A stretch of DNA of 57,741 nt, from positions 1-57,741 of the forward strand of contig CAIPEX010000025.1 in assembly GCA_903864185.1 (NCBI GenBank), given 5' to 3'. A program made the translations under genes and the position numbers. Positions within the stretch are counted from its first letter, which is position 1; each line of letters begins with the position of its first letter. The stretch is from an uncultured Chloroflexota bacterium. Lineage in GTDB: Bacteria > Chloroflexota > Limnocylindria > Limnocylindrales > Limnocylindraceae. Of the stretch, positions 2,781-27,093 are shown one piece after another. The notes under the pieces were generated by a model. The model saw only the letters and a list, made by a program, of their open reading frames with translations, did no database searches and was not told the DNA's origin.

Positions 2781-2789
2781 GGCCAACGC

Positions 2790-3086
2790 ATGGAGATGCG
2801 CGTGCGTGCGTCGCTGATTCACTGGCGGGGGCCATCGCCATTTCATTTCGTCCCCATCCCAAAGAAGGAGAGCGCACAGATCAAGTCGCTCTCTCGCCAG
2901 CTCACCTACGGCTGGGGAGTAATCCCGGTCAAGGGACGCATCGGCGCCACTACGTTTAGCACCTCGCTCTTTCCTAAAAGCGACTCGTACCTCATCCCGA
3001 TCAAGGTTGCGGTCCGCACAGCCGAGGGATTAGAGATTGGCGATTCCGTAACTGTTGACCTCACTTTTGAATTGAGTCCGCAATAG
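2790..3086 (+). CDS. DUF1905-family small protein
   Basis: A 98-residue protein whose body matches the DUF1905 pattern as I know it: an early aromatic strand, a lysine/serine helix, then GRIGATTFSTSLFPKSDSY followed by a VRTAEGLEIGDSVTVDL-type ending. The family is a small beta-rich fold of unknown function, often found alone or fused to YdeI/OmdA domains. The start is ATG 2790 with AAGG nearby; a second ATG at 2796 is equally possible. It lies 9 bp after fabF and 2 bp before a YCII-domain gene, so cotranscription is likely. Confidence 0.7.
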   Translation: MEMRVRASLIHWRGPSPFHFVPIPKKESAQIKSLSRQLTYGWGVIPVKGRIGATTFSTSLFPKSDSYLIPIKVAVRTAEGLEIGDSVTVDLTFELSPQ

Positions 3087-3088
3087 CC

Positions 3089-3415
3089 ATGCGGTTCGTT
3101 CTCTTCGTCATTGACAGCGGCAGCAACACTGCCACCCCTGGCGAAGGTGCCGCAATCGACGCCTTCAACGAGCGCCTTACGGCGGGCAACCATTTGATCC
3201 TCGCCGCGGGTATTGCCGAACCGAACCGCGCCACGCTGATCGACAATCGCAACGATCTCGGCGCCATCACCCCTGGCACACTCTTCTCCGGCCCCGAGCA
3301 CTACAGCGGCTTTTGGATTATCAACGCCGATTCACCCGAGCAGGCGCAGGCCTTTGCGGTGGATGGCTCTCGCGCGTGTAATCGCCGGGTGGAGCTGCGG
3401 CCGTTTCTCGTTTAA
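3089..3415 (+). CDS. YCII/DGPF-domain protein
   Basis: A 108-residue protein with the ferredoxin-like YCII fold: a first strand MRFVLFVIDS, a helix with FNERL, then LILAAGI, a middle strand, and a final strand FWIINADSPEQAQAF in which the S-P-E-x-A/E-A helix is typical. Members are small cytoplasmic proteins, some with dehydrochlorinase-like chemistry and most uncharacterised. It ends in a 4-base overlap with the convergent membrane gene on the other strand. I assign no substrate. Confidence 0.65.
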   Translation: MRFVLFVIDSGSNTATPGEGAAIDAFNERLTAGNHLILAAGIAEPNRATLIDNRNDLGAITPGTLFSGPEHYSGFWIINADSPEQAQAFAVDGSRACNRRVELRPFLV

Positions 3416-4047
3416 CTTGCACGCACCTCAATTGACCAGTTAGGGCGCCAAGCCCAGAGCGCTGTGCCCAACGCAAGCAATATTGACGTACACGCCCAAG
3501 CCCAACCGTCAGCTACCGGAAGCCCGATCCAAGCCCATCCAGCCGCAGCGGTTTCATCAGCGAAACCAAACACGCCAACCGCCAGGAGATAGAGTGCCGG
3601 CGCAATTGACGCGGTGCGCCATCCAGCAAAGAACCGGGCAACGAGTAGCCAGCCTAGGTAAGTCATGAGCGCTCGTGTGGCAATCAGATACGTATCGCCT
3701 ACATCTGAAGCATTGAGTCCCGCAGAGACCTGTGCGCCGATCGCTCCAAGAGCCAAGAATGCACAGACGCTTGAGGCCACGAGTACTGCGTCATAGCGAC
3801 GTATGCGGCGCGCTGCTACGGACTCTTGCGCGGGAAGCCCACTAGACAGCCCAAACCCTAAAGCGCTTGGCAACCCTAAAGCGATGAAGAGGGCGATCAC
3901 CAGCGGTGCGCCAATGGGACTCACCCGAATAGAGATTGCGCTGGCTGGAACTTGCAAAAGAAGTGCCGATCCGACTACCGAAAGAGCAATCAGATTGACT
4001 CGGCGAACTTTTCGATACAGGGACACGCTATTGAATGCTGTAGTCAT
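3412..4047 (-). CDS. Membrane protein, third gene of an ABC cassette
   Basis: A 211-residue very hydrophobic protein with about five to six predicted membrane segments separated by short polar loops. I recognise no enzyme motif. The start ATG at 4047 lies 20 bases inside the end of the preceding membrane gene, so the two are translationally coupled behind an ABC ATPase. It probably forms part of the membrane channel or an accessory subunit of that transporter. Tryptophan-rich segments near residues 180-200 are notable. Family unknown. Confidence 0.6.
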   Translation of the reverse strand: MTTAFNSVSLYRKVRRVNLIALSVVGSALLLQVPASAISIRVSPIGAPLVIALFIALGLPSALGFGLSSGLPAQESVAARRIRRYDAVLVASSVCAFLALGAIGAQVSAGLNASDVGDTYLIATRALMTYLGWLLVARFFAGWRTASIAPALYLLAVGVFGFADETAAAGWAWIGLPVADGWAWACTSILLALGTALWAWRPNWSIEVRAS

Positions 4048-9041: not shown

Positions 9042-9337
9042 GCGTGCAGCGAGAGTCCGTGGAATCCCACAACGATGCGCGCTCGCGGCATCTCATCAAA
9101 AACAAGTGCGAGCTCACCTTCGCGAACCAGCTGCTCGACAATTTTTGCCTCGCGCTCTGGGAGTCCGATCCATGCATCACCCGTTGGCGTGCTGATGCGC
9201 GTTGACATCTCTTCATCGCCAGGAAGGTTGTAGGCGCGCCGCACCTCGTGAAGCGGAACATACGGACGCGCCTTGGCCATGCGCCGCAACTGTGCGGCGG
9301 TCGCTTGCCGTTGCGCTGGTGCGCTCAACTCACTCAT
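9038..9337 (-). CDS. Small hypothetical protein at the end of the korAB operon
   Basis: A 99-residue soluble protein with a helical, Arg/Ala-rich first half and a second half containing WIGLPEREAKIVEQLVREGE, which looks like a small winged or swapped-hairpin fold. No family is recognised. It starts at ATG 9337, 2 bp after the stop of the M24 peptidase gene, and is the fifth gene of the coupled operon. It could be a small regulator or accessory factor of the peptidase, but nothing in the sequence decides this. Confidence 0.5.
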   Translation of the reverse strand: MSELSAPAQRQATAAQLRRMAKARPYVPLHEVRRAYNLPGDEEMSTRISTPTGDAWIGLPEREAKIVEQLVREGELALVFDEMPRARIVVGFHGLSLHA

Positions 9338-9339
9338 TG

Positions 9340-10587
9340 CTATCCAGCAACGACGTAGAGTTCGCGGCTTGTGAGATTGAGCTGGTCGACTGCGCGCTCA
9401 CCGCAGAGCACGATGTCTTCGATGCGCGCACCGTTCACCCCTTCAACGTAGATGCCCGGCTCAATGGAGAAGGCGTGCCCCGGGATAAGCGGCGTCGTAT
9501 TTCCGGCCACGATGTACGGATCTTCGTGCTCCTCGAGGCCGATCCCGTGCCCGGTGCGGTGGAAGAAGCGTGCCCCCTCCCCTGCCGCGTCGATCACGGC
9601 TCGAGCAGCAGCATCGACCGATTCGCAGCTCACCCCTGGGCGAACGTGATCGGTCGCCGCCTGGTGGGCGCGCTTCAAAATGTCGTAACGGCGCAGAAAG
9701 TCGTCACTTGGTGGCACCGCCCCGTTCGGGCCGGTCACCCAGAGGGTGCGGGTGGTGTCGGAACCGTAGCCGCCGAAGACCCCGCCGATGTCGAGCACGA
9801 TCGCATCGCCCGCGTTGATCACGCGCGACGAGGCCTCGTGGTGTGGTGATGCCGAGTTCGGGCCGGAGCCAACAATGGCGAACGATGAGACCTCGTGCCC
9901 CGCGCCGGTGAGTCGCTCGCGCACCTCGCGTGCCACATCGTTCTCTGTTCGACCGAGAAGTTTGCCGCTCGTGATCGCCATGACCACGGTGTCGACGGCG
10001 CGACCTGCGGCACGCAGGAGCGCCGACTCTTCGGCCGACTTCACCATGCGCAGCTTGCCGATCACTGCCGACGCGAGCTGTGTCTGCGTAATCGCGCCGT
10101 GCGTACGGAGCGCCGCCTCGATACGAATCAGGAACGTTGCCCAGAGTCGATCCGACACGGCGACGGTGCGCGCAGCGCCACCCGACCGACCGCCAGCCTT
10201 CACTGCACTCGCAACGAGTGCGAAGGGGTCGTCGGTCTCACCAAATGGAACACAGGCGACATGGCCGCCGCGCATCGCAGGAGCGTCGCCGGCCATCCCC
10301 GCCTCAAGTCGCGGAACAATCAATGTCGGCGCGCCACTCGCTGGGATCACCAGCATCGTGAGTCGCTCGAGCGCTGGTGCGGCGTACCCAGTGAGGTAGC
10401 GCATGTCGGCGCCGAAGCCGAGCAAGACGGCGTCGAGGCCAGCATCGTTCACCGCGTCACGCGCGGCGGAGAGTCGCGCCGCATACGCGGCGGGGCCGAT
10501 CAGGCGTGCCTCGAGTGCGTGCCCTGCGCCCAGGCCAGGGAGTGCGGCGGCATAGGCGGTGGAAATCTCCTGGGCTCGGTCACTCAT
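9340..10587 (-). CDS. M24-family metallopeptidase (Xaa-Pro aminopeptidase/dipeptidase type)
   Basis: A 415-residue pita-bread peptidase. The N-terminal creatinase-like domain (about 30-165) contains LLGFGADMRYLTGY. The C-terminal catalytic domain carries all five metal ligands: Asp in VLDIGGVFGGYGSD, the second Asp in SDTTRT, His in HRTGHGIGLEEHEDPY, Glu in SIEPGIYVEG and Glu in ARIEDIVL. It removes N-terminal residues before proline or cleaves Xaa-Pro dipeptides in the cytoplasm. The start is an ATGA overlap with the upstream receiver-like gene. Its linkage to korAB suggests peptide or amino acid carbon feeding 2-oxoacid oxidation, which is inference. Confidence 0.88.
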   Translation of the reverse strand: MSDRAQEISTAYAAALPGLGAGHALEARLIGPAAYAARLSAARDAVNDAGLDAVLLGFGADMRYLTGYAAPALERLTMLVIPASGAPTLIVPRLEAGMAGDAPAMRGGHVACVPFGETDDPFALVASAVKAGGRSGGAARTVAVSDRLWATFLIRIEAALRTHGAITQTQLASAVIGKLRMVKSAEESALLRAAGRAVDTVVMAITSGKLLGRTENDVAREVRERLTGAGHEVSSFAIVGSGPNSASPHHEASSRVINAGDAIVLDIGGVFGGYGSDTTRTLWVTGPNGAVPPSDDFLRRYDILKRAHQAATDHVRPGVSCESVDAAARAVIDAAGEGARFFHRTGHGIGLEEHEDPYIVAGNTTPLIPGHAFSIEPGIYVEGVNGARIEDIVLCGERAVDQLNLTSRELYVVAG

Positions 10588-10994
10588 TCGGCCTCCGGCA
10601 CTCGCGAGCCCGCTACCGGCGGCACCGGCAGGTCGAGCATCTCTGCGAGGATCGCATGTCCGCGCTCAAAGAGGGCGCGGTAGGGCATGGCACGCGCCGC
10701 ACCTGCAGCGATGAGCGCGGCGCGGGTGGCTGGATCGTCGTGCTGGACAAGCGCAAGCACGCGCCAGCCTGCCGCCGTAGCGCGCGCCACGGCATCGGCT
10801 GGGGCATAGGAGCGGCTGGTCGCGTCGATGGCGACGAGATCATGCGGAGCTGCGGTCGACCCGGCAAGCGCGGCGGTGAGCCCCTCGAGGGTGCTGTGCC
10901 GTTCAACGAGGGCGCCGAGGGTGCGCCCTTGACCTTCAATCCGCGTTGCCCAGATTAGGTCGTCGGCGAGTACGAAGAGGCGCGGTGCGCTCAC
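10584..10994 (-). CDS. Degenerate response-regulator-receiver-like protein
   Basis: A 136-residue alternating alpha/beta protein. Strands LFVLADD, HDLVAIDA and WRVLALVQH, and AARAMPYR near the end, follow the order of a CheY-like receiver. The acidic pair after strand 1 (ADD) and an Asp after strand 3 (AIDA) are present. The usual Ser/Thr after strand 4 and Lys after strand 5 are replaced by Gln/His and Arg, so phosphorylation is doubtful. The start is GTG 10994 in a GTGA overlap with korB, and the stop overlaps the M24 gene. Family membership is inferred from the pattern only; another Rossmann-like fold is possible. Confidence 0.5.
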   Translation of the reverse strand: MSAPRLFVLADDLIWATRIEGQGRTLGALVERHSTLEGLTAALAGSTAAPHDLVAIDATSRSYAPADAVARATAAGWRVLALVQHDDPATRAALIAAGAARAMPYRALFERGHAILAEMLDLPVPPVAGSRVPEAE

Positions 10995-12022
10995 TCTACG
11001 GTCCAGGTCTCCCCGGAGGCGAGGAGCTTCTGGAGATCAACGGGGCCCTTCGCGGCACGCGCCGCCTTCGCACCATCGATCTGCTCCACAAGAAGTTGGT
11101 CGTGCGTTGGGCGCGGCACGCGACGGAAGACGCCCACAGGGACGGGGAAGTCGGGCCACCACATGCGGCTCAAGATCTGCGTCCGCGTTGCATCTGGGTC
11201 GGTCTCGTCGTGAACCCAGAGGTCGGCAACGCTCACGCCGTTCTCGCCGATCGTCACGACCTCAGGTCGCAGGCCGTTGAGTCGGATCCCCTTGTTCTTC
11301 TCGGCGCCGAAGATCATCGGCTCGCCGTGCTTGAGCACCAGCATGCGATCCTCCTTCACCGACTTGTCGGTGAAGTCGCGCCAGGCGCCGTCGTTGAAGA
11401 TGTTGCAGTTCTGCAGTACCTCGAGAAAGGCGGCGCCGGAGTGCTCGCCCGCGCGATGCATCATCTCTTGCAGATGCTCAGAGTGCGTGTCGACCGATCG
11501 CGCGATGAAGCTCGCCTCTGCCGCAGCAACCAGGTTGAGCGGAATGATTGGCGTCTCGATGGTGCCGAGCGGCGTCGACTTCGTCTTCTTGCCGATCGGC
11601 GAGGTTGGCGAGGCCTGACCCTTCGTCAGACCGTAGATGCGGTTGTTGAACATGATCATCTTCATGTCGACGTTGCGACGCATCGCGTGAATCAAGTGGT
11701 TCCCGCCAATCGACAGCGCGTCGCCGTCGCCCGTGATCACCCAGACCATCAGGTCGGGGCGCGCCGCCTTGAGCCCAGTAGCAATCGTTGCCGCGCGGCC
11801 GTGAATGGTGTGGAAGCCGAAGGTGTTCATGTAGTACGGGAGTCGACCCGAGCAGCCGATCCCGGAGATGAAGACGATCTTCTCCTTCGCGACGCCGAAG
11901 TCGGGCATCGTCTTCTGGGTCTGCGCCAAGATGGAATAGTCGCCGCAGCCTGGGCACCAGCGCACGTCCTGGTCGGATTCGAAGTCCTTCTTTGTCAGTA
12001 CGGGGAGCTCACTCTGCGTCAC
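10991..12022 (-). CDS. korB: 2-oxoacid:ferredoxin oxidoreductase, beta (TPP) subunit
   Basis: A 343-residue subunit that binds thiamine diphosphate and a [4Fe-4S] cluster. WCPGCGDYSI supplies two cluster cysteines, GIGCSGR a third, and GDGDALSIGGNHLIHAMRRN is the TPP/Mg motif region. With KorA it oxidatively decarboxylates 2-oxoglutarate (or another 2-oxoacid) to the acyl-CoA and reduces ferredoxin. The GTG start lies in a GTGA overlap with korA, giving tight coupling and 1:1 subunits. The C-terminal RRVPRPTHDQLLVEQ region is typical of the KorB group rather than pyruvate oxidoreductase. The ferredoxin at 15.9-16.2 kb could be its acceptor. Confidence 0.9.
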   Translation of the reverse strand: MTQSELPVLTKKDFESDQDVRWCPGCGDYSILAQTQKTMPDFGVAKEKIVFISGIGCSGRLPYYMNTFGFHTIHGRAATIATGLKAARPDLMVWVITGDGDALSIGGNHLIHAMRRNVDMKMIMFNNRIYGLTKGQASPTSPIGKKTKSTPLGTIETPIIPLNLVAAAEASFIARSVDTHSEHLQEMMHRAGEHSGAAFLEVLQNCNIFNDGAWRDFTDKSVKEDRMLVLKHGEPMIFGAEKNKGIRLNGLRPEVVTIGENGVSVADLWVHDETDPDATRTQILSRMWWPDFPVPVGVFRRVPRPTHDQLLVEQIDGAKAARAAKGPVDLQKLLASGETWTVE

Positions 12023-13896
12023 TTCGCTACCTCCACACTCTCGCCGAGGAGCGACTCGGCCTTCGCTTCGATCTCACCAATCTGGAACGGCTTCCCGCGC
12101 ACGAGGTTGAAGCCGATGGCGTCAACGAGGTACTTCGAGCGAATGAGCATGCGCAGCTGCCCGGCGTTGAGCTCAGGCATCAGCACCTTATCGAAGCGCT
12201 GGAGGATCTCACCCAGGTCGCCTGGGAGTGGGTTGATGTGCCGGATATGCGCATGGCCGACCTTGCGCCCGCGTGCGCGCAGCCGCTCGACCGCCGAGCG
12301 AATCGAGCCATAGGTTGATCCCCAGCCGAGGATCAAGAGCTCGCCGCGATCATCGCCGTAGATCTCGGTCGCCGGGATATCACGCACGATGCGTGCAACC
12401 TTCTCGGCGCGCAGCAGGTTCATGCGGTGATGGTTGTCGGGGTCGTAGGAGACGGTGCCGAGCTCGTCGAGTTTCTCAAGCCCGCCGATGCGGTGCTCGA
12501 GCCCAGGCGTTCCTGGCACGGCCCATGGTCGCGCCAGCGTCTCTGGGTCGCGCTTATACGGACGGAATCCTGGACCCGTTGCGGCCGGTGCATTCTCGAC
12601 CTTGATCGATGGGAGATCGGCAACCTGCGGAATGAGCCACGGCTCTGCACCGGTCGCGAGGAAGGCGTCAGACAAATAGACGACCGGTGTCATGTGCTTC
12701 AGCGCAATGCGCCACGCCTCGATCGCCATCGTGAAGCACTCGGCAGGCGTTGCGGGTGCAACAACCGGAATCGGCGAGTCGGAGTTGCGGCCGAACATGC
12801 TCATCAGCAGGTCGCCCTGCTCGGTCTTCGTTGGCATCCCTGTCGACGGTCCAGCGCGCTGCACGTCGACAACGACGAGGGGGAGCTCGACCATCACGGC
12901 GAGTCCGAGCATCTCTGCCTTGAGCGCCATCCCTGGGCCTGACGTCGTCGTCATGCCGAGTGCGCCGCCGTATGCGGCGCCGACTGCGGCGCCGATCGCC
13001 GCGATCTCATCTTCAGACTGCACCGTCTTGATGCCGAGGTGCTTATATGACGAGAGCTGATGCAAGATGTCGGAGGCCGGCGTGATTGGGTAGCTCGCCA
13101 AGAAGAGGTCGCGCTCCGCGAGGCGTGAGGCGGTGACGAACCCGAGGGCGGTCGCCTCGTTCCCCGTAATGTTGCGATACATGCCCGGTGGTAGGTGCGC
13201 AGGCGCAACGCGATAGTGCGTGTGGAACATCTCCGTCGTCTCGCCGAACGCGTAGCCGGCATGGAGTGCGCGGCGATTCGCTTCGGCGACTGCATCTTTG
13301 CCTGCAAACTTTTCGGCGATCCACTTCTCGGTTGCGGCCATCGACCGCTCGTAGAGCCAGAACATGACGCCGAGGGCGAAGAAGTTTTTGGTGAGCTCGA
13401 TCTGCTTGCTCGTCATGCCGAGCCCCTCACACGCATTGGCAACCATCGTCGACATAGGGATCTCGTAGAGGTTGTAGCCCTGGAGTGAACGGTCCTTCAG
13501 CGGGTCGCTCTCATAGCCAGCCTTGCGCAGATTGATCTCGTTGAACGCGTCGGTGTTCACGATGATCCCGCCGCCGGGAACGAGGTCGGCAATGTTCACC
13601 TTGAGTGCAGCGGGGTTCATCGCCACGAGGACATCGGGGCGGTCGCCTGGGGTGTGGATGTCGCCACTAGAGAAGCTGATCTGGAAGCCAGAGACGCCTG
13701 GCAACGAGCCTGCTGGCGCGCGAATCTCCGCGGGGAAGTCGGGCAGGGTTGAGACGTCGTTGCCGAAGAGGGCGGTGGTGGCGGTGAACTGCGAGCCGGT
13801 CAGCTGCATCCCGTCGCCTGAGTCGCCAGCAAACCGAATCGTCACGCGATCCAGCTCGGTAATCGACTGCTGTTCTCCGCTCTTGTTCGTGGTCAC
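12019..13896 (-). CDS. korA: 2-oxoacid:acceptor oxidoreductase, fused gamma-alpha subunit
   Basis: A 625-residue protein. Residues about 15-195 form the gamma domain (RFAGDSGDGMQLTGSQF start), followed by the pyrimidine-binding alpha domain with SYPITPASDILHQLS and TTTSGPGMALKAEM, and a C-terminal transketolase-like domain with LGWGSTYGSI. Gamma-alpha fusion of this length is usual for KorA of actinobacteria, Chloroflexota and relatives. The start is GTG 13896 with a strong GGAGGAG site. It heads a five-gene operon with korB, a receiver-like gene, an M24 peptidase and a small protein. It offers an oxygen-tolerant ferredoxin-linked bypass of 2-oxoglutarate dehydrogenase in the TCA cycle. Confidence 0.9.
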   Translation of the reverse strand: MTTNKSGEQQSITELDRVTIRFAGDSGDGMQLTGSQFTATTALFGNDVSTLPDFPAEIRAPAGSLPGVSGFQISFSSGDIHTPGDRPDVLVAMNPAALKVNIADLVPGGGIIVNTDAFNEINLRKAGYESDPLKDRSLQGYNLYEIPMSTMVANACEGLGMTSKQIELTKNFFALGVMFWLYERSMAATEKWIAEKFAGKDAVAEANRRALHAGYAFGETTEMFHTHYRVAPAHLPPGMYRNITGNEATALGFVTASRLAERDLFLASYPITPASDILHQLSSYKHLGIKTVQSEDEIAAIGAAVGAAYGGALGMTTTSGPGMALKAEMLGLAVMVELPLVVVDVQRAGPSTGMPTKTEQGDLLMSMFGRNSDSPIPVVAPATPAECFTMAIEAWRIALKHMTPVVYLSDAFLATGAEPWLIPQVADLPSIKVENAPAATGPGFRPYKRDPETLARPWAVPGTPGLEHRIGGLEKLDELGTVSYDPDNHHRMNLLRAEKVARIVRDIPATEIYGDDRGELLILGWGSTYGSIRSAVERLRARGRKVGHAHIRHINPLPGDLGEILQRFDKVLMPELNAGQLRMLIRSKYLVDAIGFNLVRGKPFQIGEIEAKAESLLGESVEVAK

Positions 13897-16252: not shown

Positions 16253-16489
16253 CTACATCCCCGACGGGGTAAAGGCAGGGTCAAGGTAGCGGCTCGGCTC
16301 ATCGCCGAAGTCGAGCATGCAGCCACGCCCGCAGAACCAGAAACGCTCGACCCCTGGCTCGGCAGGGTCAACAGCGCCGACGTGCCTGCCTGGTGCCGCC
16401 GCGTTGACCAGGTCTGCCACGAGCACCGTGCTCGTGAGCGCCGCCGGCTCAACCGCAACCTCCATGCCACACACTGGATCGATTGCCAT
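16253..16489 (-). CDS. YHS-domain metal-binding protein
   Basis: A 78-residue protein with the YHS pattern DPVCGMEV at the start and FWFCGRGCMLDF near the end, so three Cys and a Met could bind copper or another soft metal. YHS domains accompany copper ATPases and metal trafficking proteins. GAGGAGG lies just upstream; ATG 16489 gives better spacing than ATG 16492. It overlaps the end of ctaG, so the two are one transcript, which supports a copper-delivery role in oxidase assembly. The 100 bp between this gene and the ferredoxin contain no recognisable gene. Confidence 0.75.
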   Translation of the reverse strand: MAIDPVCGMEVAVEPAALTSTVLVADLVNAAAPGRHVGAVDPAEPGVERFWFCGRGCMLDFGDEPSRYLDPAFTPSGM

Positions 16490-17424
16490 CATGCCTCCTC
16501 CTCTGCTCGCTTCGCGCTCAGTGCCGCCTCGCGCCGATGAATCTCGGCCAAGGCGGGTGCAAGCGCCGCGTCGTCGCGGCCTGCCGTACGTTCAGCATCG
16601 CGCATCCACGCCGCGAGCACAACAAAGACCGCGATGAGGAAGAGGATGTCGCCGATCATCCACATCAGCGCGCCGGCAAGCTGCTGGTCTTCGAGTGGTG
16701 ACGGACCCCAGGTTCGACCGAGCGTTTCGTAGTGCGGGTAAAGGACGCGCGGTGCCCACATGATCGCGACGCCGAGGAAGCTGTTCTGCGGCATCTGCGT
16801 AATGAGATACCCGAGTGCAGCACCGCGCGAGAGCTTATGGCGCATCGGGTCGACCGAGAAGACGGGCGCCCAAAAGATCAGCGCGCAGGTGAGATAGAGC
16901 AGGTGCTCGGCATCGTGAACGAGCGGATCTTCAAGGGCGAGGTCGAAGAGCGATGAGAGATGCGTTGCCCACATCACAGCAACGAGGAGGACCCAACCCG
17001 TGATCGGATGCGTGACCGCGCCAACGGCACGACTCTGCAGCACGCGCAGGATGCGAGCACGCCGCGCCGGCGTCGCAAGTCGAAGGAGCAGCGTAATTGG
17101 GCCGGCCTGCAAGAGGAGGATCGGCACGGGGAAGAGCAAGATCAGGTGCTGCACCATGTGGACGCTAAAGAGTGCGGTGTCATACCGCTCGACAACCGAC
17201 TGCAAGGCGATGAGGGTGAGGGCGAGCGCGGCGATCAGTGCGACGCTACGACGGCGCGGGACTGGATTCCCTGGATGTGCGGCGTTCACACGTCGAACGG
17301 CGAGCCACCAGAGCACGAGGGTTGCGAGGACCGCCAGAGTGACGAGCGGAGGCGAGGTCCAGTAGCCGAGGGCGGCAATGCTCGGCTCGGGCGGCAAGGG
17401 TCCGTGGGCGGGAATCTGGCTCAC
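16489..17424 (-). CDS. ctaG: Cytochrome c oxidase assembly factor CtaG (caa3 type)
   Basis: A 311-residue integral membrane protein with about seven helices. It shows the family hallmarks HMVQHLILL in the second conserved segment, SSLFDLALED and HDAEHLLYLTCALIFW further on, and a final loop with GPSPLEDQQLAGALMW. CtaG-type proteins help insert copper into haem-copper oxidases in Gram-positive bacteria and alphaproteobacteria. The start is GTG 17424 without a clear ribosome site. The divergent small gene starts about 50 bp away. No oxidase structural genes are in the window. Confidence 0.88.
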   Translation of the reverse strand: MSQIPAHGPLPPEPSIAALGYWTSPPLVTLAVLATLVLWWLAVRRVNAAHPGNPVPRRRSVALIAALALTLIALQSVVERYDTALFSVHMVQHLILLFPVPILLLQAGPITLLLRLATPARRARILRVLQSRAVGAVTHPITGWVLLVAVMWATHLSSLFDLALEDPLVHDAEHLLYLTCALIFWAPVFSVDPMRHKLSRGAALGYLITQMPQNSFLGVAIMWAPRVLYPHYETLGRTWGPSPLEDQQLAGALMWMIGDILFLIAVFVVLAAWMRDAERTAGRDDAALAPALAEIHRREAALSAKRAEEEA

Positions 17425-17479
17425 GGGTACAATCTACCTGCCGAGAGTTGATCCGGTGATAGCTGCGAGGTGCAAGACA

Positions 17480-17644
17480 TTGCGTAGGTTCCCAATCGCG
17501 TTCGGTGCCCTCTTCTTCCTCATTGGCGGGGTCTACCTCTACGTCTCCAACGACATCGCTGGCGCCTTCATGCTCATCACCCTTGGGGTGGCCATGGCCA
17601 CGATGACGATGATCGTCATTCATGCCATGGAGACCGACAACTAG
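17480..17644 (+). CDS. Small two-helix membrane protein
   Basis: A protein of about 54 residues consisting mostly of two hydrophobic helices (PIAFGALFFLIGGVYLYVS and a second glycine/methionine-rich one) with a short charged tail. The start is uncertain. TTG 17480 has GAGG nine bases upstream and avoids the ctaG region, GTG 17456 is also possible, and an ATG at 17378 would overlap ctaG on the other strand. It lies 12 bp before the cupredoxin fusion gene. Size and context fit a small accessory subunit of a respiratory complex, but no family is certain. Confidence 0.5.
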   Translation: MRRFPIAFGALFFLIGGVYLYVSNDIAGAFMLITLGVAMATMTMIVIHAMETDN

Positions 17645-17656
17645 GCAGACGAGCAG

Positions 17657-18757
17657 ATGGACCTCCTTCGCGCGCTCCTTGAGTGGGTGGTCTCCCTGAT
17701 CGGACCCCTCGTCGCTCCCGACTGGGCAGCCCTGATCCGCCTCATCCCCATCGGCGTCCTCCTCCTCGTTGCCAGCTTCTACGGCTGGGTCCTCCTGCGC
17801 TATCGCCGCGCGGGGACGCGCCGCGTCGGTCACCCGCCACGTGCTCCGCGCGCGCCAGCAGGCATCCATCTCCCTGGTCCAAGCCTGGCGCCGTTCCTCA
17901 TCTCTGCTGCTGCGGCGGCGCTCTTCTTCTCAGCGGCGCTTGGTGGCATCGCCCTCCTCGTTGCGGCACTCTTCCTCGTCTTCGCGTTGATCGCCTGGGG
18001 CCGCGAGGCGGTGCATGAGTACGACGCACTCGGCGGCGTCCAGAGCCAGGCGCTCATCGCTGCTGACGCAGCGAACTCGACCGAACTACTGACTCCTGCC
18101 GGGCCACCAGATGGTGTGCACCTGCCGCCACCATCGCTCCTCCCCTTCCTCGTCAGCCTCGGCGCCGCAGTAATGCTCTTTGGTGCAGCGATCGGTCTCT
18201 CGTTCGTCTTGCTTGGCGCGCTCATGACCGTCCTCGCGCTCATCGGCTGGCTTATCGACTCTGGGCGGGAATATCGTGCAGTTGCCGAAGCAGATGCAAC
18301 GGGCCATCTGGTCTCACCAGCGCCAAAGCGCGCGCCACAGTTCGTCATCGCACTGATGTCGCTCCTCTTCGTTGTGGTTGGCGGCGCGCAGGCAGGGTTC
18401 TTCGCAAGCAGCGATGTGAGCCCGAGTCCAAGCCCATCGGGCAGCACGTGCGTTGCCGACGCGACAGGCGTTCTCACCGTGTGTGCCGAGCTCGTCGCCT
18501 TCTCGGTGCCAACCATCGAGATCGCCGCGGGAGCACCAACAAAGATTCGCTTCGTTAACTACGACGCTGGCGTGCCGCACAACATTGCCATCTACGAGGG
18601 GAGCGCCGATGCCAGTGGCACGCAGATCTTCAACGGCGAGATCTTTGCGGGCGTTGATGAGCGGACCTACGACATCCCTGCGCTCAATGCTGGAGCAACG
18701 TACGCATTCCTTTGCCTTGTGCACCCGAACATGGTCGGCACGGTGGTCGTGCAGTGA
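17657..18757 (+). CDS. Membrane-anchored cupredoxin with duplicated two-helix units
   Basis: A 366-residue protein in three parts. Residues 25-48 form one membrane helix. Residues 69-125 and 153-208 are two copies of a two-helix unit, each opening with G-I/V-H-L-P-x-P-S-L-x-P-F-L. After another helix (about 229-250) and a Ser/Pro linker comes a plastocyanin-like domain with type 1 copper ligands His308 (VPHNIAI), Cys353, His356 and Met359 (C-x2-H-P-x-M). The H-L-P-x-P-S motif recalls small haem-copper oxidase subunits, from memory. The domain probably sits outside and carries electrons. Its copper domain closely resembles that of the cytochrome c fusion at 21.7-22.7 kb. It overlaps the thioredoxin gene by GTGA. 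Confidence 0.75.
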   Translation: MDLLRALLEWVVSLIGPLVAPDWAALIRLIPIGVLLLVASFYGWVLLRYRRAGTRRVGHPPRAPRAPAGIHLPGPSLAPFLISAAAAALFFSAALGGIALLVAALFLVFALIAWGREAVHEYDALGGVQSQALIAADAANSTELLTPAGPPDGVHLPPPSLLPFLVSLGAAVMLFGAAIGLSFVLLGALMTVLALIGWLIDSGREYRAVAEADATGHLVSPAPKRAPQFVIALMSLLFVVVGGAQAGFFASSDVSPSPSPSGSTCVADATGVLTVCAELVAFSVPTIEIAAGAPTKIRFVNYDAGVPHNIAIYEGSADASGTQIFNGEIFAGVDERTYDIPALNAGATYAFLCLVHPNMVGTVVVQ

Positions 18758-20029: not shown

Positions 20030-20104
20030 GGGCCGGTAGCTCAGTGGTAGAGCAGGGGTCTTTTAAACCCTTGGTCGCGGGTTCGAACCCCGCCCGGCTC
20101 ACCA
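20030..20104 (+). tRNA. tRNA-Lys (TTT), CCA encoded
   Basis: The acceptor GGGCCGG pairs with CCGGCTC (one G-U). D arm GCTC/GAGC, anticodon loop CTTTTAA with anticodon TTT, T arm GCGGG-TTCGAAC-CCCGC, discriminator A, then encoded CCA at 20102-20104. The 96 bp between it and the kelch-like gene contain no recognised gene. Confidence 0.93.
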
Positions 20105-20200: not shown

Positions 20201-21703
20201 CTACGGATCCTTTCGTCCAAGTTTCGCGCGCAGCCAGGCGGCGGCACGCTCACGCTGGGCATAGACGACGGCCGCAGCAAGGAGGAGGACGAAGTTCAGC
20301 GTCCATGCACCTGCTGCCGACAGATAGCCAAGCTGCTGGCCAACTTCACCCTGAATCGCAAGGCCCGGCACGGTGAGCCCGAAGAGTCCGAGTCGGAATA
20401 CCGGTGCCTTGGGTGATGTGCCTGCAATGAGTGTGCTGTTTGCAGTCGCGAGCGCGCTGGGGGTTGTGCCACCAATGAGTACGGCGTGTCCGCCAAGCAC
20501 GATGCCGTGTGCGCCGATGCGCGCGTTGTCGACGGGCAGATCATCTTGTGCGATCGTCGCCCACTCGCCAGTGAGTCCAGCGGCTGTTGGTGCGATCCAG
20601 TAGGTGCTCGTGACAGCCGAACCATCTGCTGCAACTCCACCAGCAACGTAGAGCGTGCCGTTCGCCGACCAGAGCGCTGCGCCCACGCGCGGCGAAGGGA
20701 GGAGCGCACCTTCTGCCGTCCATCGATAGATCTCGCCAATCGGTGTCTCGCCTTGCGCAGGATCTGGGGTTGCGGCTGGTGCGCCGTGGCCAGTTGCTGG
20801 ACTGTGTGCAACGGCAAGATCGCCGCGAAGTACCACGTTTGTCGCAACTGCTGCCTCTGCCTCACTGCCGCCCCACACATAGAGTGCATCGCCGACAAGT
20901 GCGGCCGCTGCGTCGGCACGTGCGGCTGGGAGTTCCATCAGTGGGACCCATGCCGCAAGGTCACCGCTCGACTGCAGGGCTGCCTTCCAGACGCTCGTTT
21001 GCGCAACGCCATTGGCGTCTCGGCCGCCGATAAGGATGAGTCCGTCACTGACCGCAACGAGTGCTGCGCCAGAGCGCGCGCTCGGGAGATCCAGCATGGT
21101 CGAAGGTGTCCAGGTGGCAATGAGGCCCGTGGTTGCATCTGGCGTGCCGACATAGACACTCGTCGTTGCCTTCACGTCTAGTGTCGCTCCGCCAACGACA
21201 TACGCCTTCCCGGCGAAGAAGGCTGCGGCAACATCGGTTCGCGGTGCCGGAAGTGGTGCACCGGCGCTCCATGTGCTGAGTCCGTCGGGGCCAACTTCGG
21301 CAACGGCGGTTCCCGTCGTGCCGCCACCGCCGCCCAGGTAGTAGAGATGCGCACCAGCTTGGACAAGCCCGCCGCCGACTCCGCCACCAGGGAGATCCGT
21401 GGTCGTGCCGCTCTTCCACGGGAGGAGCGCGCCGTTTGGCGCAGGGCACGGGAGCCCCTCATTCTCTGCTGGGCAGATGTTCACGAGCGAGAGACCGTTG
21501 AGGCCGAGCTCAACGGTTGGCGAGACGGTGAGGTAGTAGGCGCGGTCCGGGATGTAGCCAAGCATCATGATGATGACAAGCGTCCAGAGGATTGCGCGTA
21601 CGCCAGCCCATCCCCAGCCCGATGCATCGAGCAGGCCGAAGAGCACACGCTTCGGTGGCACGTTGCCACTCTCGAGCGCGCGTGGGGCGTTCGTTGTATT
21701 CAT
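20201..21703 (-). CDS. Membrane-anchored kelch-like beta-propeller protein
   Basis: A 500-residue protein with one helix near the N-terminus (about 34-52) and one near the C-terminus (about 470-488), enclosing a large outer domain. That domain has repeated kelch blades of the kind LPAPRTDVAAAFFAGKAYVVGG, with a paired Gly-Gly after each hydrophobic strand and an aligned Trp; I count about six units. It is the last gene of the flavoprotein-cytochrome b operon, with start ATG 21703 overlapping the TGA of the cytochrome c-cupredoxin gene. Such a propeller could be a scaffold or docking surface for that complex. I know of no standard bc complex with this subunit. Confidence 0.7.
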   Translation of the reverse strand: MNTTNAPRALESGNVPPKRVLFGLLDASGWGWAGVRAILWTLVIIMMLGYIPDRAYYLTVSPTVELGLNGLSLVNICPAENEGLPCPAPNGALLPWKSGTTTDLPGGGVGGGLVQAGAHLYYLGGGGGTTGTAVAEVGPDGLSTWSAGAPLPAPRTDVAAAFFAGKAYVVGGATLDVKATTSVYVGTPDATTGLIATWTPSTMLDLPSARSGAALVAVSDGLILIGGRDANGVAQTSVWKAALQSSGDLAAWVPLMELPAARADAAAALVGDALYVWGGSEAEAAVATNVVLRGDLAVAHSPATGHGAPAATPDPAQGETPIGEIYRWTAEGALLPSPRVGAALWSANGTLYVAGGVAADGSAVTSTYWIAPTAAGLTGEWATIAQDDLPVDNARIGAHGIVLGGHAVLIGGTTPSALATANSTLIAGTSPKAPVFRLGLFGLTVPGLAIQGEVGQQLGYLSAAGAWTLNFVLLLAAAVVYAQRERAAAWLRAKLGRKDP

Positions 21704-22707
21704 CACTTCGCCGTCAACGTTCCGACCATGTTCGGATGCACCGTGCAGACGAAGGCGTAGGTGCCCTTTGCGAGCGCAGGGATCGTGTAGGTCTGCTGCG
21801 CAATACCAGGGAAGATCGCCCCCCGGAACACCTCTGCACCAGTGGCGCTCCCTGTGTGAATCGCGACGTTATGCGGAATGCCCAGATCCTGGTTGTCAAA
21901 CGCGATCGCAAACGGAACGCCAGCGGTCACCGTGAGGCTCATCGTGGTGTACTGCACGCCCTGCGCAACGATGCTGTAGGTCTTGCCGGGTGCAACAGAG
22001 GGGCCGCCCGTTGGGGCTGGCGTTGGCGATGCAGCAAATGCATCGCTCCAGCAATCAGGAACTGGCGTTGCATCGGCTGCTGGAACATATGCTGCGTCGC
22101 GCCAGCCCGTTACCTGAACCCTCGCTCCCGTTGCAGGATCGGTCACGGTGATCGTGTCAGTGTTCGTTGAGCGGATCCAGGCAATCAACTCTTCAATCTC
22201 GCGATAGTTGAGCGGTCCACCATTCGTGTCAGACCAGACACCCATGAGTGAATTTGCATTGCCGCACACGTACCGGCCGCCGACGGTCAGCACATTCTTG
22301 AGGTATGCCGGGGTTAGATGCGAGAGCAGCTTCCCTTGATCGTTTAGCACTGGCCCAATGCCACCCTGCCCCTGTGCGCCGTGACAGCGCGCGCAGTTTG
22401 CCTGGAAGAGGTTGTAGCCACGTGTCACCGTTTCGAGGTACTGCTCCTCTTTCGCGGCATCAAGGCGCGCAGAGCCAGTGACACCTGGGAGTCCCTGGTC
22501 GTAGAAGGTATACACGATGACAAAAAGCGTGACGATGGCGATGCCGAGCAGTGCTGCGGCGCGCGAGGAGCCGCTCTGCTTGACAATCTTTGCCGCTCGC
22601 TCAGCATCGAGCCCGTGCGTATGAATTGGTGCAGGGCTTGAGAGGCGTGGCACTGGCGTGCTCGCCTTCTCTACTGGAACAGGGAGCTGCTTCTGCTCGT
22701 CGCTCAT
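21703..22707 (-). CDS. Membrane-anchored monohaem cytochrome c fused to a cupredoxin
   Basis: A 334-residue protein. A cytoplasmic N-terminus (1-48) is followed by a membrane helix (about 50-68). Then a class I cytochrome c domain has haem site C105-A-R-C108-H109 and likely axial Met155, and a linker with C148 and C219 may form a disulfide. The C-terminal plastocyanin-like domain has ligands His279 (IPHNVAI), Cys321, His324 and Met327. The start ATG 22707 overlaps the Rieske stop (TAATG). It takes the operon place of cytochrome c1/f. Electrons can plausibly pass Rieske to haem c to copper within one chain. The copper domain closely matches that of the 17.7-18.8 kb protein. Confidence 0.85.
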   Translation of the reverse strand: MSDEQKQLPVPVEKASTPVPRLSSPAPIHTHGLDAERAAKIVKQSGSSRAAALLGIAIVTLFVIVYTFYDQGLPGVTGSARLDAAKEEQYLETVTRGYNLFQANCARCHGAQGQGGIGPVLNDQGKLLSHLTPAYLKNVLTVGGRYVCGNANSLMGVWSDTNGGPLNYREIEELIAWIRSTNTDTITVTDPATGARVQVTGWRDAAYVPAADATPVPDCWSDAFAASPTPAPTGGPSVAPGKTYSIVAQGVQYTTMSLTVTAGVPFAIAFDNQDLGIPHNVAIHTGSATGAEVFRGAIFPGIAQQTYTIPALAKGTYAFVCTVHPNMVGTLTAK

Positions 22708-23375
22708 TAGATGCACCCCGTTGCGGCGCGTGGCGCTTCGATCCCTGGCTGCCCGAGCGCTACGGGCATGCCGCCAAGGTTGATCTTCCCCGTGTCGAGG
22801 GTGAGCACGCCGTCGGCGTCAACGCTCAAGGAGAAGCGGTCCATGCCGCGCGGCGCTGGGCCGAGTCCGTCTGCCTTCGTGCCGAGTCGGTCGTAGCGAC
22901 TGCCATGGCAGGCGCACTCAAGCCAGTAGGTCTTGATGCAGGGGTTTGGCTTGCAGCCAAGATGTGGGCAGCGTTGATAGAGGGCGCGAACGTTGAGCGC
23001 ACTCCCCTCGCCTGTTGGGTCGTCACCGGCGATGAACTCCTTCCGGCTCGGATCAACGAGCATGATGAAGGCGCGGGCGTCTTGTACATACGCGGGGTAG
23101 CCCTGGTCAATTGGAAGTCCCACGTTGGCGTTGATCAGTGACTGCAGCGTGCCGACGCGCACCTTGCCACCAAATCCCCCTTCGAGATTTGGCCAGAGGA
23201 AGCCGAGTGTGCCCGCAGTGACCTCGAGGAGCCAGAGACCGAAACCGGCGCCAATCGTGGTGCGCAAGAGTCGACGGCGCGAGATGCCCTGAACCTCTTC
23301 ATGGCGCAGCGCCTTGATGGTCTCGCCGGTCAAGGCCTGTGGCTTGTCGGCTGGCTCAACTTGATAGTGGCTCAT
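22707..23375 (-). CDS. Rieske [2Fe-2S] protein of a cytochrome b complex
   Basis: A 222-residue subunit. The start ATG 23375 overlaps the TGA of the subunit IV gene. Near residue 35 is SRRRLLRTT followed by a hydrophobic helix, consistent with a Tat-type membrane anchor. The cluster motifs are CPHLGC and CACHGS, supplying two Cys and two His ligands plus the disulfide pair. An additional Cys in KPNPCIK between them is unusual. It accepts an electron from quinol at the outer site and passes it to the cytochrome c domain encoded next. It follows the usual order after cytochrome b genes. Confidence 0.9.
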   Translation of the reverse strand: MSHYQVEPADKPQALTGETIKALRHEEVQGISRRRLLRTTIGAGFGLWLLEVTAGTLGFLWPNLEGGFGGKVRVGTLQSLINANVGLPIDQGYPAYVQDARAFIMLVDPSRKEFIAGDDPTGEGSALNVRALYQRCPHLGCKPNPCIKTYWLECACHGSRYDRLGTKADGLGPAPRGMDRFSLSVDADGVLTLDTGKINLGGMPVALGQPGIEAPRAATGCI

Positions 23376-23959
23376 AGGCTGAAGAAGAATCCGGTTGACC
23401 AGGGGAGGATGAACGAGTAGCCCGGCCCGCGGAAGAAGATTCCGATGAAGGTGACGGTGAGGCCGAGTGCCCAAAGGAGCGAGAAGAGCATCACCTCAAG
23501 CTTCCGATCCGACGGGCGCGTGCTGCGAATGTTGCGACGGTCAAGATACGGAATGAGCGCAGAGCCAACGAGCACGCCGATCGGCGTGAGCGCACCGGCA
23601 ACGGTCGGGTGGAAATAGGCGAGGAGCTCTTGGAGTCCGAGGAAATACCACGGCGCCTTTGCAACGGCGGGGGTGACGTTCGGGTTCGCAAGCTCTTCGA
23701 GTGGTGCATTGATGAAGAGTCCGAGCATGAGCAAGAAGATGCTCATGGCCACGGCGGCCAAGAACTCAATCGTTAGGAGGTGGGGCCAGGTCATCACCGT
23801 GTCGTCTGGCTCTTTTTGTACGCGCACGACGGCGTCTTGCTTTACCAGCGCCAAGAGGCGGTAGGGGCGCGCTGCCATCGGCACGCGCTGCTTATCAATC
23901 TCCGTCTGGCGCGACGGATCGACTGGCAGCGAGCTTGCGGGGCGCTGCTCGTCACTCAC
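23372..23959 (-). CDS. Cytochrome b subunit IV-type (C-terminal cytochrome b) protein
   Basis: A 195-residue protein with three membrane helices after a long cytoplasmic N-terminus containing TWPHLLTIEFLAA. The sequence AKAPWYFLGLQELLAYF holds the quinol-oxidation loop in which the family PEWY is shortened to APWY. It provides the outer quinol site together with the cytochrome b6 protein. It starts with GTG 23959, 6 bp after the b6 gene. The split layout is that of b6f-type complexes rather than one-piece bc1 cytochrome b. Confidence 0.88.
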   Translation of the reverse strand: MSDEQRPASSLPVDPSRQTEIDKQRVPMAARPYRLLALVKQDAVVRVQKEPDDTVMTWPHLLTIEFLAAVAMSIFLLMLGLFINAPLEELANPNVTPAVAKAPWYFLGLQELLAYFHPTVAGALTPIGVLVGSALIPYLDRRNIRSTRPSDRKLEVMLFSLLWALGLTVTFIGIFFRGPGYSFILPWSTGFFFSL

Positions 23960-23965
23960 GGCAGA

Positions 23966-24694
23966 TCACAGCGGTCCGCTGATTCCGCCGTCCTTGCGGA
24001 TCCGCCAGAAGTGGACCGCGAGGAAGACGGCCGCGAGGAGCGGCAGCACCATCACATGGAGCACATAGAAGCGAAGGAGCGTGTTCTGTCCCACCTCGAG
24101 GCCGCCGAGGAGGAGGAGCTTCGATGGCGTATTGAAGAGCGGCGCATAGCCGGCCATGTTCGATCCGATCGTGATCGCCCAGTAGGCGATCTGATCCCAT
24201 GGGAGCAGGTAGCCGGTGAAGCTGAGCATCATCGTCAAGAAGAGGAGGAGGACGCCGACCACCCAGTTGAATTCGCGTGGCGGCTTGTATGCGCCGTGAT
24301 AGAAGACGCGCATCATGTGAAGGAAGACGAAGAACACCATGAGGTGCGCGCCCCAGCGATGGATGTTGCGCGTGATCTGCCCGAATGGGACGAGCGTCTG
24401 GATGCGAATGATGTCGCTATACGCCTGCGTTGCAGAGGGGGCGTAGAAGAACATCAGGTAGACGCCGGTCACGGTAAGGACGAGGAAGAGGAAGAAGGAG
24501 AGCCCGCCGAGACAGAAGGTGTAGGCGAACTTCACGGCGTGCTGGCGTACACGCACTGGGTGAAGGTGGAGGAAGACGTTGTTCATCACCGCATAGGCAC
24601 GGCTCCGCTCGTCGCTCGGGTAGGCATTGCGGAAAATGGAGCGCCAAGCTGACGACCGTCGAACTGCCTGATCGACTCGCGCTAGAAGGCTCAT
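23966..24694 (-). CDS. Cytochrome b6-type protein (N-terminal cytochrome b)
   Basis: A 242-residue protein with four helices. The haem ligands are His112/His126 in helix B and His213/His228 in helix D. The 14 residues between the helix D histidines are the b6f-type spacing (bc1 has 13). Cys61 in FCLGGLSFF lies where b6 and Bacillus QcrB have the Cys that binds an extra covalent haem. The start is an ATGA overlap with the large flavoprotein upstream. It carries quinone chemistry and moves electrons across the membrane with subunit IV and the Rieske protein. Confidence 0.92.
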
Positions 24695-26523
24695 TGCGCT
24701 CCTCCCCCTGTGCCGGCAACCCCTGCGAGCTGCCCATCTCGGTATGACTCCTTATAGAGGCGACCATCCGAGCTGATCTCCTGCATCTCGAACCTCTCCA
24801 TCGTAATGGCGTCGAACGGACAGCGCTTGACGCAGAGGGCGCAGCGGATGCAGCGCTCCTCGTCGAGGATCATGGCCGCGCCGTTCTCCCAGCCATACGC
24901 CTCGCTGAGCACGGGGAGCTGCCCCTCGGCCTTCAGCTGGTTGATATCCACCATATGGATGACCCCCTCGGGGCAGACATCGGCGCAGGCGCCGCACAAG
25001 ACGCAGCGCATCGGATCGAACCAGATGTTGTAGTTGCACATGAGGCAGCGGGTGCTCTCGGCGACCGCCTGCTGCGCCCCGTAACCAAGCTCCACCTGGG
25101 TGGTGAAGTTCACCGTTGGGTCGGCAGAGGGGAGGCGCGCTGCAAGCGGGAGCACGGGGATGTGCTGGCGCGGGATGGTGTCGTAGAACTCAGGCATGTC
25201 GTGGCGCCACGAACTCGTGACGCGCACATTCGCATCGACCGTCACCGTTGCCTGGCCCGCAAGGTAGCGATCGATTGCATAGGCGCACTTCTTCGCGTGA
25301 CCGGCCGCCTCGATCATCGTCGCTGGCCCAGTGACAAAATCGCCACACGCCCACACGCCACGGATGTTGGTGGCGTAGGTTGCCGGGTCAACCTTCACGC
25401 GACCGCGTGCAACTTCGAAGCTGCTCTGCACGGGAAGGAAGCCGAGGTCGGCCGCCTGCGAAACCGCCGGGATCACCGTGTCAGCAGGGATGATGAATTC
25501 TGATCCTTCAATCGGCACGGGGCTACGTCGGCCGGAGGCGTCGGGTTCGCCGAGGCGATTCTTAATCATGCGCACCCCGGTGATGTGGCCGTTCTCACCG
25601 ACCAGCTCGAGTGGCGAGACAAGGAAGTCCATGCGCACGCCCTCGCGCTCGGTCTCGCCCAACTCCTCTTCGTCGACAACGAGTTCGGCACGGGTGCGGC
25701 GATATGCAATCGTGACGCGCTCGGCACCGTGTCGGAGCGAGGTGCGCGAGCAGTCCATCGCCGTGTAGCCACCACCGATGACGACGACATCCTTACCCAC
25801 GCTGATCGGCTTTCCGAGGTTTGCATCTTTCATGAAATCAACGCCGTAGACGAGGCCGTCGAGGTCGGCGCCAGGGATGTCGAGGGCGACCGCGTTCATC
25901 GCACCAGCACAGATCGCAATCGCGTCGTAGTCGGCCTGCACCTGCTCAAAGCTCAGCTCGCGGCCGATCTCGGTGTTGTAGACAAACTTCACGCCGAGCC
26001 GCTCAATCAGCCGCACGTCGGTCTCGATCGCCTCGCGAGGGAGGCGGAATGCCGGCACGCCAATGAGCATCGTGCCGCCGCCGTACGGGAGGCTGTCATA
26101 CACGGTGACCTGGTAGCCCTTTACTGCAAGCTCGCGCGCCACAGAGAGGCCGGCGGGGCCGGCGCCGATCACGGCAACGCGCTCGGCGCGCGGCGAGATC
26201 GCTGGAGCGACATCGGGGATCCCCGATGCTGCGTGCCACTCGACGAGGAAGCGCTTCATCGCCCGGATCGCGAGTGGCCGATCAATATCGCCACGGCGGC
26301 AGGCCCGCTCGCACGGTGCCGAGCAGACGTAGGAGCACATTGCAGCGATGGGGTTTGGCTCGCGGGAGAGGATGTAGCCCTCTTCGAAGCGTCCTTCGGC
26401 GGCGAGGTTGAGGTAGCCGCGGCAGTTGGTGCCGACGGGACAGGCCTCCTGGCACTCAATGTTGCACTGCAACCATGAGGCGTCTACCGGCTGGACGAGG
26501 AAGTCCTGGTTCGCGAGAGTCAC
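24691..26523 (-). CDS. FAD/NAD(P)-dependent FeS oxidoreductase (GltD-like with C-terminal 2[4Fe-4S])
   Basis: A 610-residue cytoplasmic protein from GTG 26523 (AAAGG six bases upstream; TTG 26529 is the alternative). The N-terminal cysteine-rich domain has [15 protein letters not shown] plus [13 protein letters not shown], as in the glutamate synthase small subunit. FAD site [11 protein letters not shown] and NAD(P) site [11 protein letters not shown] follow. The tail contains [17 protein letters not shown] and [12 protein letters not shown], two ferredoxin-type clusters. It leads the operon for cytochrome b6, subunit IV, Rieske and c-cupredoxin, so it probably exchanges electrons between NAD(P)H or ferredoxin and the quinone complex. 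No gltB is nearby. Direction and partner are inferred. Confidence 0.88.
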
Positions 26524-26610
26524 ATTCAACCTTTCCTTGGGTCGCGCGACGGGGTTACTCCTCCGTGATCGTATCAGGGAGCCCTAAGCGCCGTGCTCAG
26601 CGAGGAACTG

Positions 26611-27093
26611 TTACGAACGTGCGGTGATCTCGGCGAGGACCTCAGCGGCATGCCCGGTTGGGGTGACCTTTGGCCAGACCCGCGCCACGGATCCATCGGG
26701 GGCAATGAGCAGGGTGATGCGGTGCACCGCGTGGAAAGTCTTCCCGAGCATCTCCCTCTCCCCCCAGGCGCCATACGCCTCGGCCACCGCGTGGTCGGGG
26801 TCGGAAAGGATTGGAAAGTTCAGTGAAAACTTCTCCCGGAATGCTGCCTTGCTCGCCTGGTCATCGGGACTCACGCCCCAGACCACGGCACCCGCTCGCT
26901 GCAACTCCGCGTCAGCATCACGAAACTCACACGCCTCGATCGTGCAGCCAGGCGTGTCGTCTTTCGGATAGAAGTAGAGGACGAGCCAGCTCCCCGCAGC
27001 ATCGGCACGCTTCCGCTCAATGCCGTCGGCGTCGCGCAGCGTGAAGTCGGGGGCGGGTGTCCCTACCGATGGATGGTCGCCCAGTTCGCTCAT
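26611..27093 (-). CDS. bcp: Thiol peroxidase of the Bcp/PrxQ family
   Basis: A 160-residue peroxiredoxin that reduces hydrogen and organic peroxides with thioredoxin. The peroxidatic Cys50 is in FYPKDDTPGCT and the resolving Cys55 lies five residues on (EACEF), the PrxQ arrangement. The start ATG 27093 overlaps the stop of the fused ECF transporter gene, so it is the last gene of the thiamine operon. Mass production with a thiamine transporter may reflect oxidant sensitivity of TPP enzymes such as KorAB, which is speculation. Confidence 0.9.
   Translation of the reverse strand: MSELGDHPSVGTPAPDFTLRDADGIERKRADAAGSWLVLYFYPKDDTPGCTIEACEFRDADAELQRAGAVVWGVSPDDQASKAAFREKFSLNFPILSDPDHAVAEAYGAWGEREMLGKTFHAVHRITLLIAPDGSVARVWPKVTPTGHAAEVLAEITARS

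Follow-up and report, generated by a model that had tools for sequence, protein, structure and literature searches.

Cytochrome b6-like complexes with operon-encoded nicotinamide adenine dinucleotide (phosphate) (NAD(P)) oxidoreductases have been described in the anammox bacterium Kuenenia, where they are proposed to form NAD(P)H (PMC12954380). Proposals of such wiring of an NADP(H) module to a b6 complex have so far been confined to anammox bacteria, in which its function awaits proof. Here, a six-gene operon with similar logic is described on the minus strand at positions 20201-26523 of contig CAIPEX010000025.1 (assembly GCA_903864185.1), the whole 57,741-nucleotide stretch of which is referred to as the window. 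The operon encodes an iron-sulfur (FeS) flavoprotein, a cytochrome b split into b6 and subunit IV, a Rieske protein, a cytochrome c-cupredoxin fusion and a kelch protein, and it is the only candidate for a complex III found in its genome, a Limnocylindria (Chloroflexota) metagenome-assembled genome (MAG) of 1.12 Mb that is 92% complete. As the named relatives, Candidatus Aquidulcis and Candidatus Limnocylindrus, are lake MAGs (flavoprotein identity 91-93%), the source is best regarded as a freshwater Limnocylindria bacterium. No discussion of this complex was found in the freshwater Chloroflexi papers searched. Related published observations are a b6f-like cluster in a phototrophic Chloroflexota (PMC10972752) and two PetAB complexes in RBG-9 (PMC3971608).

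By their published description, the anammox complexes Kuste4569-4574 and Kustd1480-1485, a kind of precedent to which the initial annotation had rightly pointed, share with this locus a b6-like cytochrome b, a subunit IV and a Rieske protein, an operon-encoded cytoplasmic FeS protein with flavin adenine dinucleotide (FAD) and NAD(P) sites, and a haem cn with a Glu ligand. Yet the anammox complexes have a hexa- or octahaem cytochrome as outlet and a subunit IV of five transmembrane helices, whereas the outlet here is a monohaem cytochrome c with a type 1 copper site and subunit IV has three helices. Further differences are the kelch protein, the aerobic host and the position of the complex as the only complex III, compared with one of three in anammox bacteria. 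The operon thus follows the anammox logic but, having neither the multihaem outlet nor the five-helix subunit IV, falls outside the anammox group. With the b6f complex of chloroplasts and cyanobacteria it shares the split b6 and subunit IV, the four haem b histidines, the haem cn cysteine and the Rieske protein, but it differs in lacking cytochrome f, in having APWY for PEWY and Glu for Phe at haem cn, and in its flavoprotein and kelch genes.

The six genes are tightly coupled, neighbours overlapping by 1-4 bases or standing 6 bases apart, and all six assignments are confirmed by Pfam scores above the family cut-offs. This agrees with the initial annotation of six coupled genes. The flavoprotein and b6 genes, like those of subunit IV and the Rieske protein, overlap in ATGA; b6 and subunit IV are separated by the 6-base gap; the Rieske and cytochrome c-cupredoxin genes overlap in TAATG, and the latter and the kelch gene in TGATG. 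The flavoprotein gene starts with GTG, which is suited by a GGAAAGG sequence, and an in-frame TTG at 26529 is an alternative. Each of the 40 Limnocylindrales loci in which 5 kb or more of downstream sequence follows the flavoprotein gene has the same gene order, including two that were flagged solely through a cytochrome b reading frame called with an early start and were counted as conserved. Across this order, flavoprotein identity is 78-84%, near that of b6 (83-90%) and above that of COX1 (76-77%) and of a StnC-like subunit of complex I (75%). An arrangement so widely kept, with a flavoprotein so conserved, is far beyond chance.

The linkage extends to the whole class. Among 117 class genomes that are at least 80% complete, 81 contain both flavoprotein and b6, 25 contain neither, seven only the flavoprotein and four only b6 (Fisher p = 3e-15, a value inflated by relatedness); the 11 genomes with a single gene are mostly fragmented MAGs. 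When both genes are on one contig, the flavoprotein gene is adjacent to, co-oriented with and directly upstream of b6 in 78 of 78 class genomes. The possibility raised in the initial annotation that flavoprotein and kelch genes might usually be unlinked to the cytochrome genes was therefore not borne out, the kelch gene likewise lying downstream in 40 of the 40 long Limnocylindrales loci. Furthermore, COX1, b6 and the flavoprotein are missing together from all four genomes of one genus (g3) among the 40 relatives searched, and this joint loss ties the operon to aerobic respiration.

The membrane core consists of b6 (petB-like, 242 aa, 23966..24694, minus strand, PF00033 (Cytochrome_B)), subunit IV (petD-like, 195 aa, 23372..23959, minus strand, PF00032 (Cytochrom_B_C)) and the Rieske 2Fe-2S protein (222 aa, 22707..23375, minus strand, PF00355). 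In b6, the haem b ligands are H112, H126, H213 and H228, and an alignment over 184 residues to the structure of spinach b6 places C61 at spinach C35, to which haem cn is bound through a thioether. Subunit IV, with three transmembrane helices by hydropathy, has E65 at the position of spinach F40, where the axial ligand of haem cn is found, and its motif at the quinol-oxidising (Qo) site is APWY instead of PEWY. PEWY accompanies ubiquinone or plastoquinone, and Qo motifs departing from it accompany menaquinone; the complex is thus probably of the menaquinone type. The Rieske protein carries both ligand boxes, CPHLGC and CACHGSRYD, together with a Tat-like SRRRLL motif, and its closest solved structures are the anammox proteins 9rk4 and 9rk3. 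The Ser and Tyr of the second box, which raise the potential of Rieske proteins (PMC12954380), are both present.

Comparing flavoprotein-bearing with flavoprotein-free relatives revealed no flavoprotein-specific tuning of haem cn, the Qo site or the Rieske Ser/Tyr pair. The haem cn cysteine is present in 82 of 85 flavoprotein-bearing and 22 of 32 flavoprotein-free b6 sequences, the Glu in 76/76 and 24/25 subunit IV sequences, and APWY in 75/76 and 23/25, respectively, the 25 flavoprotein-free sequences including the spinach reference. As these residues are unaffected by the presence of the flavoprotein, a working quinone-reducing (Qn) pocket seems to be retained. In the anammox complexes, an N-terminal histidine of cytochrome b (His43 of Kuste4571) is associated with an interfacial haem b. 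The b6 protein here has H43 and H45, which may or may not correspond to it. Both are nearly invariant, but they are equally so in flavoprotein-free relatives and were rejected as a flavoprotein-specific haem site. Two other histidines on the inner face of b6, H52 (82/85) and H133 (77/85), occur in almost all flavoprotein-bearing Limnocylindria but seldom in other Chloroflexota. This pattern is suggestive of contact with the flavoprotein, but shared ancestry could account for it, since phylogeny confounds the comparison, and the b6 of one flavoprotein-bearing locus outside the class (L165) is without H52. The b6 tree, built by a quick method, is weakly resolved (21 of 50 inner branches open), so that its four label changes are a parsimony count only.

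The inner module is the flavoprotein (610 aa, 24691..26523, minus strand), in which Pfam recognises Fer4_20, Pyr_redox_2 and Fer4 and hydropathy reveals no transmembrane helix. Its AlphaFold2 model (predicted local distance difference test, pLDDT, 75) resembles most closely StnC of StnABC (8oh5_C) and NfnA of NfnABC (9bov_A), followed by NfnB and the glutamate synthase GltD. The GltD-like part of StnC has binding sites for NADPH and for an FAD that is not the bifurcating flavin, while C114 or K170 ligates the FAD-proximal cluster and R239 lies beside the flavin (PMC10482914). These three residues align to C34, K90 and R160 of the flavoprotein, of which K90 and R160 are invariant in 21 of 21 complex-linked flavoproteins and C34 in all 18 from the class. 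Further cysteines are located at 63, 67, 71 and 75 near the N-terminus and in a dicluster motif (507-517, 558-568) of the C-terminal 2[4Fe-4S] ferredoxin-type domain, and together they predict four [4Fe-4S] clusters. R275 and R276 are conserved as well, and by analogy with the StnC/NfnB-like GltD family the protein is expected to be specific for NADP(H). It differs from StnC, NfnA and NfnB in occurring without StnAB/HydBC or NfnA, in being encoded within a cytochrome b operon and in having its own C-terminal dicluster ferredoxin domain. The proposal that a split b6-type cytochrome b is linked to a cytoplasmic protein with FAD, FeS and NADP(H)-type sites is thus upheld by Pfam, fold matches and gene order. 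The flavoprotein is predicted to sit at the inner face of the complex, and its linkage, its loss together with b6 and its strong conservation suggest physical attachment. More distant GltD-like flavoproteins (29-38% identity) are also encoded upstream of cytochrome b in three Chloroflexota loci outside the class (L165, L172, L177). Their orthology is unsupported, as they fall outside the class clade and lack C34, and they are possibly separate recruitments.

At the outer face, no cytochrome f subunit is encoded in the operon. Instead, the fifth gene (21703..22707, minus strand, Pfam Cytochrome_CBB3 and Cupredoxin_1) joins a class I cytochrome c to a cupredoxin behind one N-terminal transmembrane helix, in agreement with the suggestion that a fusion of haem c and type 1 copper replaces cytochrome c1 or f. 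The single CxxCH motif is CARCH at 105, the copper ligands are H279, C321, H324 and M327, and PDB matches include amicyanin and plastocyanin. A few deep Limnocylindrales branches (L067, L082 and others) have a divergent copper domain that misses the Pfam cut-offs, in part only narrowly, while keeping the Cys-His-Met pattern. The type of outlet does not depend on the presence of the flavoprotein. In three flavoprotein-bearing sister families (f3, f4 and f5), the corresponding protein has two CxxCH motifs and no copper site, and the haem-copper fusion occurs without the flavoprotein in six loci of other Chloroflexota (L145, L153, L158, L160, L164 and L166). Flavoprotein-free Chloroflexota complexes (for example, L145, L153, L164 and L149) share the order of b6, subunit IV, Rieske and c-type genes and the haem cn and Qo motifs, with either a dihaem cytochrome c or a haem-copper outlet, but have neither flavoprotein nor kelch. 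All four combinations of flavoprotein presence or absence with outlet type therefore occur, and as the inner and outer ends vary independently they are separate modules, so that the initial view of the combination as one functional invention does not hold. A further locus (L150) that had appeared to contain a haem-copper fusion was a false positive; at the position of the fifth gene, a Chloroflexota b6 operon there encodes a cytochrome c fused to LysM repeats (9189-10841).

Other cupredoxins are encoded near genes of the oxidase. In the window (16489-18757), the oxidase assembly gene CtaG adjoins the gene of a divergent membrane protein that ends in a cupredoxin domain (17657-18757). The region of the COX operon (L187) encodes a two-domain sulfocyanin/plastocyanin-like protein (2430-3686, minus strand) and a membrane cupredoxin (6955-7809, plus strand), the latter resembling that of the fifth gene (score 89). 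Given these positions, electrons may reach the oxidase by way of copper, and copper proteins may replace soluble cytochrome c.

The last gene encodes the kelch protein (500 aa, 20201..21703, minus strand, Pfam kelch). Its AlphaFold2 model (pLDDT 79) is a beta-propeller with one transmembrane helix at each end and matches kelch folds in the PDB (E 3.6e-18). Across the order, the membrane ends are conserved and the propeller is variable. The protein was found in 55 Limnocylindrales genomes and, outside that order, only as one 81-residue fragment, which again speaks against a single joint invention of all parts. It is perhaps an accessory of the outer face for assembly or for docking of the copper acceptor, although this is a guess.

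The genomic context provides further clues to the role of the complex. The genome has one match to PF00032 and one COX1, and NrfD, a marker of alternative complex III, was found in none of 19 genus genomes, which leaves the operon as the only candidate for complex III. Complex I is present, and 38 of 41 relatives have PntB of the proton-pumping transhydrogenase. The window also encodes, some 6 kb away from the operon, a korAB-type 2-oxoacid:ferredoxin oxidoreductase (10991-13896, minus strand), while the E1 component of 2-oxoglutarate dehydrogenase was found in none of the 19 genus genomes. These genes point to a ferredoxin-dependent 2-oxoacid step in an aerobe, and reduced ferredoxin would therefore be available for input into the complex. 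In the complex I cluster of the same genome (L186, 3628-7943), the usual NuoG is absent and its place beside nuoF is taken by a StnC/NfnA-like protein of 846 aa, with a 2Fe-2S domain, a GltD-like FAD/NADP(H) domain and Fer4s (best PDB match 9bov_A, E 1.4e-163). Similar matches adjoin nuoF across the Limnocylindrales and suggest that complex I of an aerobe has an NADP(H)-linked N-module. The operon itself is bounded at its 3' end by a tRNA-Lys gene on the plus strand (20030-20104), and a peroxiredoxin gene upstream (26611-27093) is not counted as a member.

The reading favoured here, with a probability of about 0.42, is that the operon encodes the sole complex III of an aerobe, in which a b6-type Q cycle has a copper outlet and an attached NADP(H)-FAD module feeds the Qn site. 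The b6-type complex would run a Q cycle and send electrons outward via haem c and then type 1 copper, which would probably pass them through membrane cupredoxins to an aa3-type oxidase. At the cytoplasmic face, a non-bifurcating StnC-type NADP(H)-FAD protein would be attached, its four [4Fe-4S] clusters lined up as a wire that leads to haem cn in the Qn pocket. This wire would most likely bring electrons in at Qn, as the pocket still appears able to reduce menaquinone. NADPH, or ferredoxin reduced by 2-oxoglutarate:ferredoxin oxidoreductase, could serve as donor, and the donated electrons would join those returning from haem bn to reduce menaquinone, much as has been proposed for ferredoxin in cyclic flow around b6f. 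Electrons may also be able to travel this path in reverse, and the confurcation or reverse flow suggested in the initial annotation is likewise hypothetical. The wider proposal, in which the only complex III of an aerobe from an abundant freshwater lineage has its Q cycle physically coupled to the pool of NADP(H) and ferredoxin, in either direction, appears more probable than not. Several points weigh against input at Qn. Attachment of the flavoprotein is deduced from linkage, co-loss and conservation, and menaquinone use from the Qo motif. With complex I and PntB present, NADPH fed straight to menaquinone would waste energy, an argument that has been made for the anammox complexes against this direction (PMC12954380). 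In addition, the StnC-like subunit of complex I could instead use reduced ferredoxin.

Some of the same features would fit a complex that produces NADPH, as proposed for anammox bacteria, although this is considered less likely. Quinol would be bifurcated at Qo, one electron going to the copper acceptor and oxygen and the other by way of haem bp, haem bn, haem cn and the FeS wire to FAD and finally NADP+. The gene logic is that of Kuste4569-4574 and Kustd1480-1485 (PMC12954380), the closest solved Rieske proteins are those of these two complexes, the Rieske Ser/Tyr pair suits such a scheme, the anammox proteins having been measured at +303 and +335 mV, and the four predicted clusters equal the number modelled there, with R160 and K90 kept in every complex-linked flavoprotein and C34 in the 18 Limnocylindria ones. 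However, no other complex III was found in the genus, the Glu-ligated haem cn and the Qo and Rieske motifs are alike in flavoprotein-free relatives, with no special energetic tuning visible, PntB is present in nearly all relatives, and a haem cn near -50 mV would trap electrons bound for NADP+. NADPH production is therefore judged less likely than an entry of electrons from NADPH or ferredoxin at haem cn and Qn. Somewhat less probable still is that the flavoprotein acts as a soluble ferredoxin:NADP+ oxidoreductase and shares no more than a transcript with an ordinary b6-type complex III. While the flavoprotein has no transmembrane helix, GltD-like proteins are common and soluble, the ferredoxin reduced by 2-oxoglutarate:ferredoxin oxidoreductase needs an oxidase and the same b6 complex serves many Chloroflexota that have no flavoprotein, the constant position upstream of b6, the ATGA coupling, the conservation above COX1 and the complex I subunit, and the loss together with b6 all argue against independence. 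Finally, a dedicated selenite/tellurite or extracellular electron pathway, indicated by the NCBIfam label of b6, is highly improbable. The b6 protein does score 297.6 against ExtP (cut-off 290), but subunit IV reaches only 49 against a cut-off of 150 for ExtQ, and the other four operon proteins match no Ext family. Ext clusters encode a porin and cytochromes with 4 to 12 haems (PMC5877670), while the operon has no multihaem cytochromes; Ext membership was rejected for want of these partners, despite the ExtP score.

A logic proposed for anammox bacteria, where such complexes are one of three, thus recurs in aerobes in which the complex is the only complex III found. Sister lineages with the same core but no flavoprotein, or with another outlet, offer a natural comparison, which makes testable what a nicotinamide-linked module does to the Q cycle and haem cn. 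Complex III in these bacteria is put together from an inner and an outer module, each exchanged without regard to the other, and the findings suggest that NADP(H)-type GltD modules may sit on both complex I and complex III of one respiratory chain.

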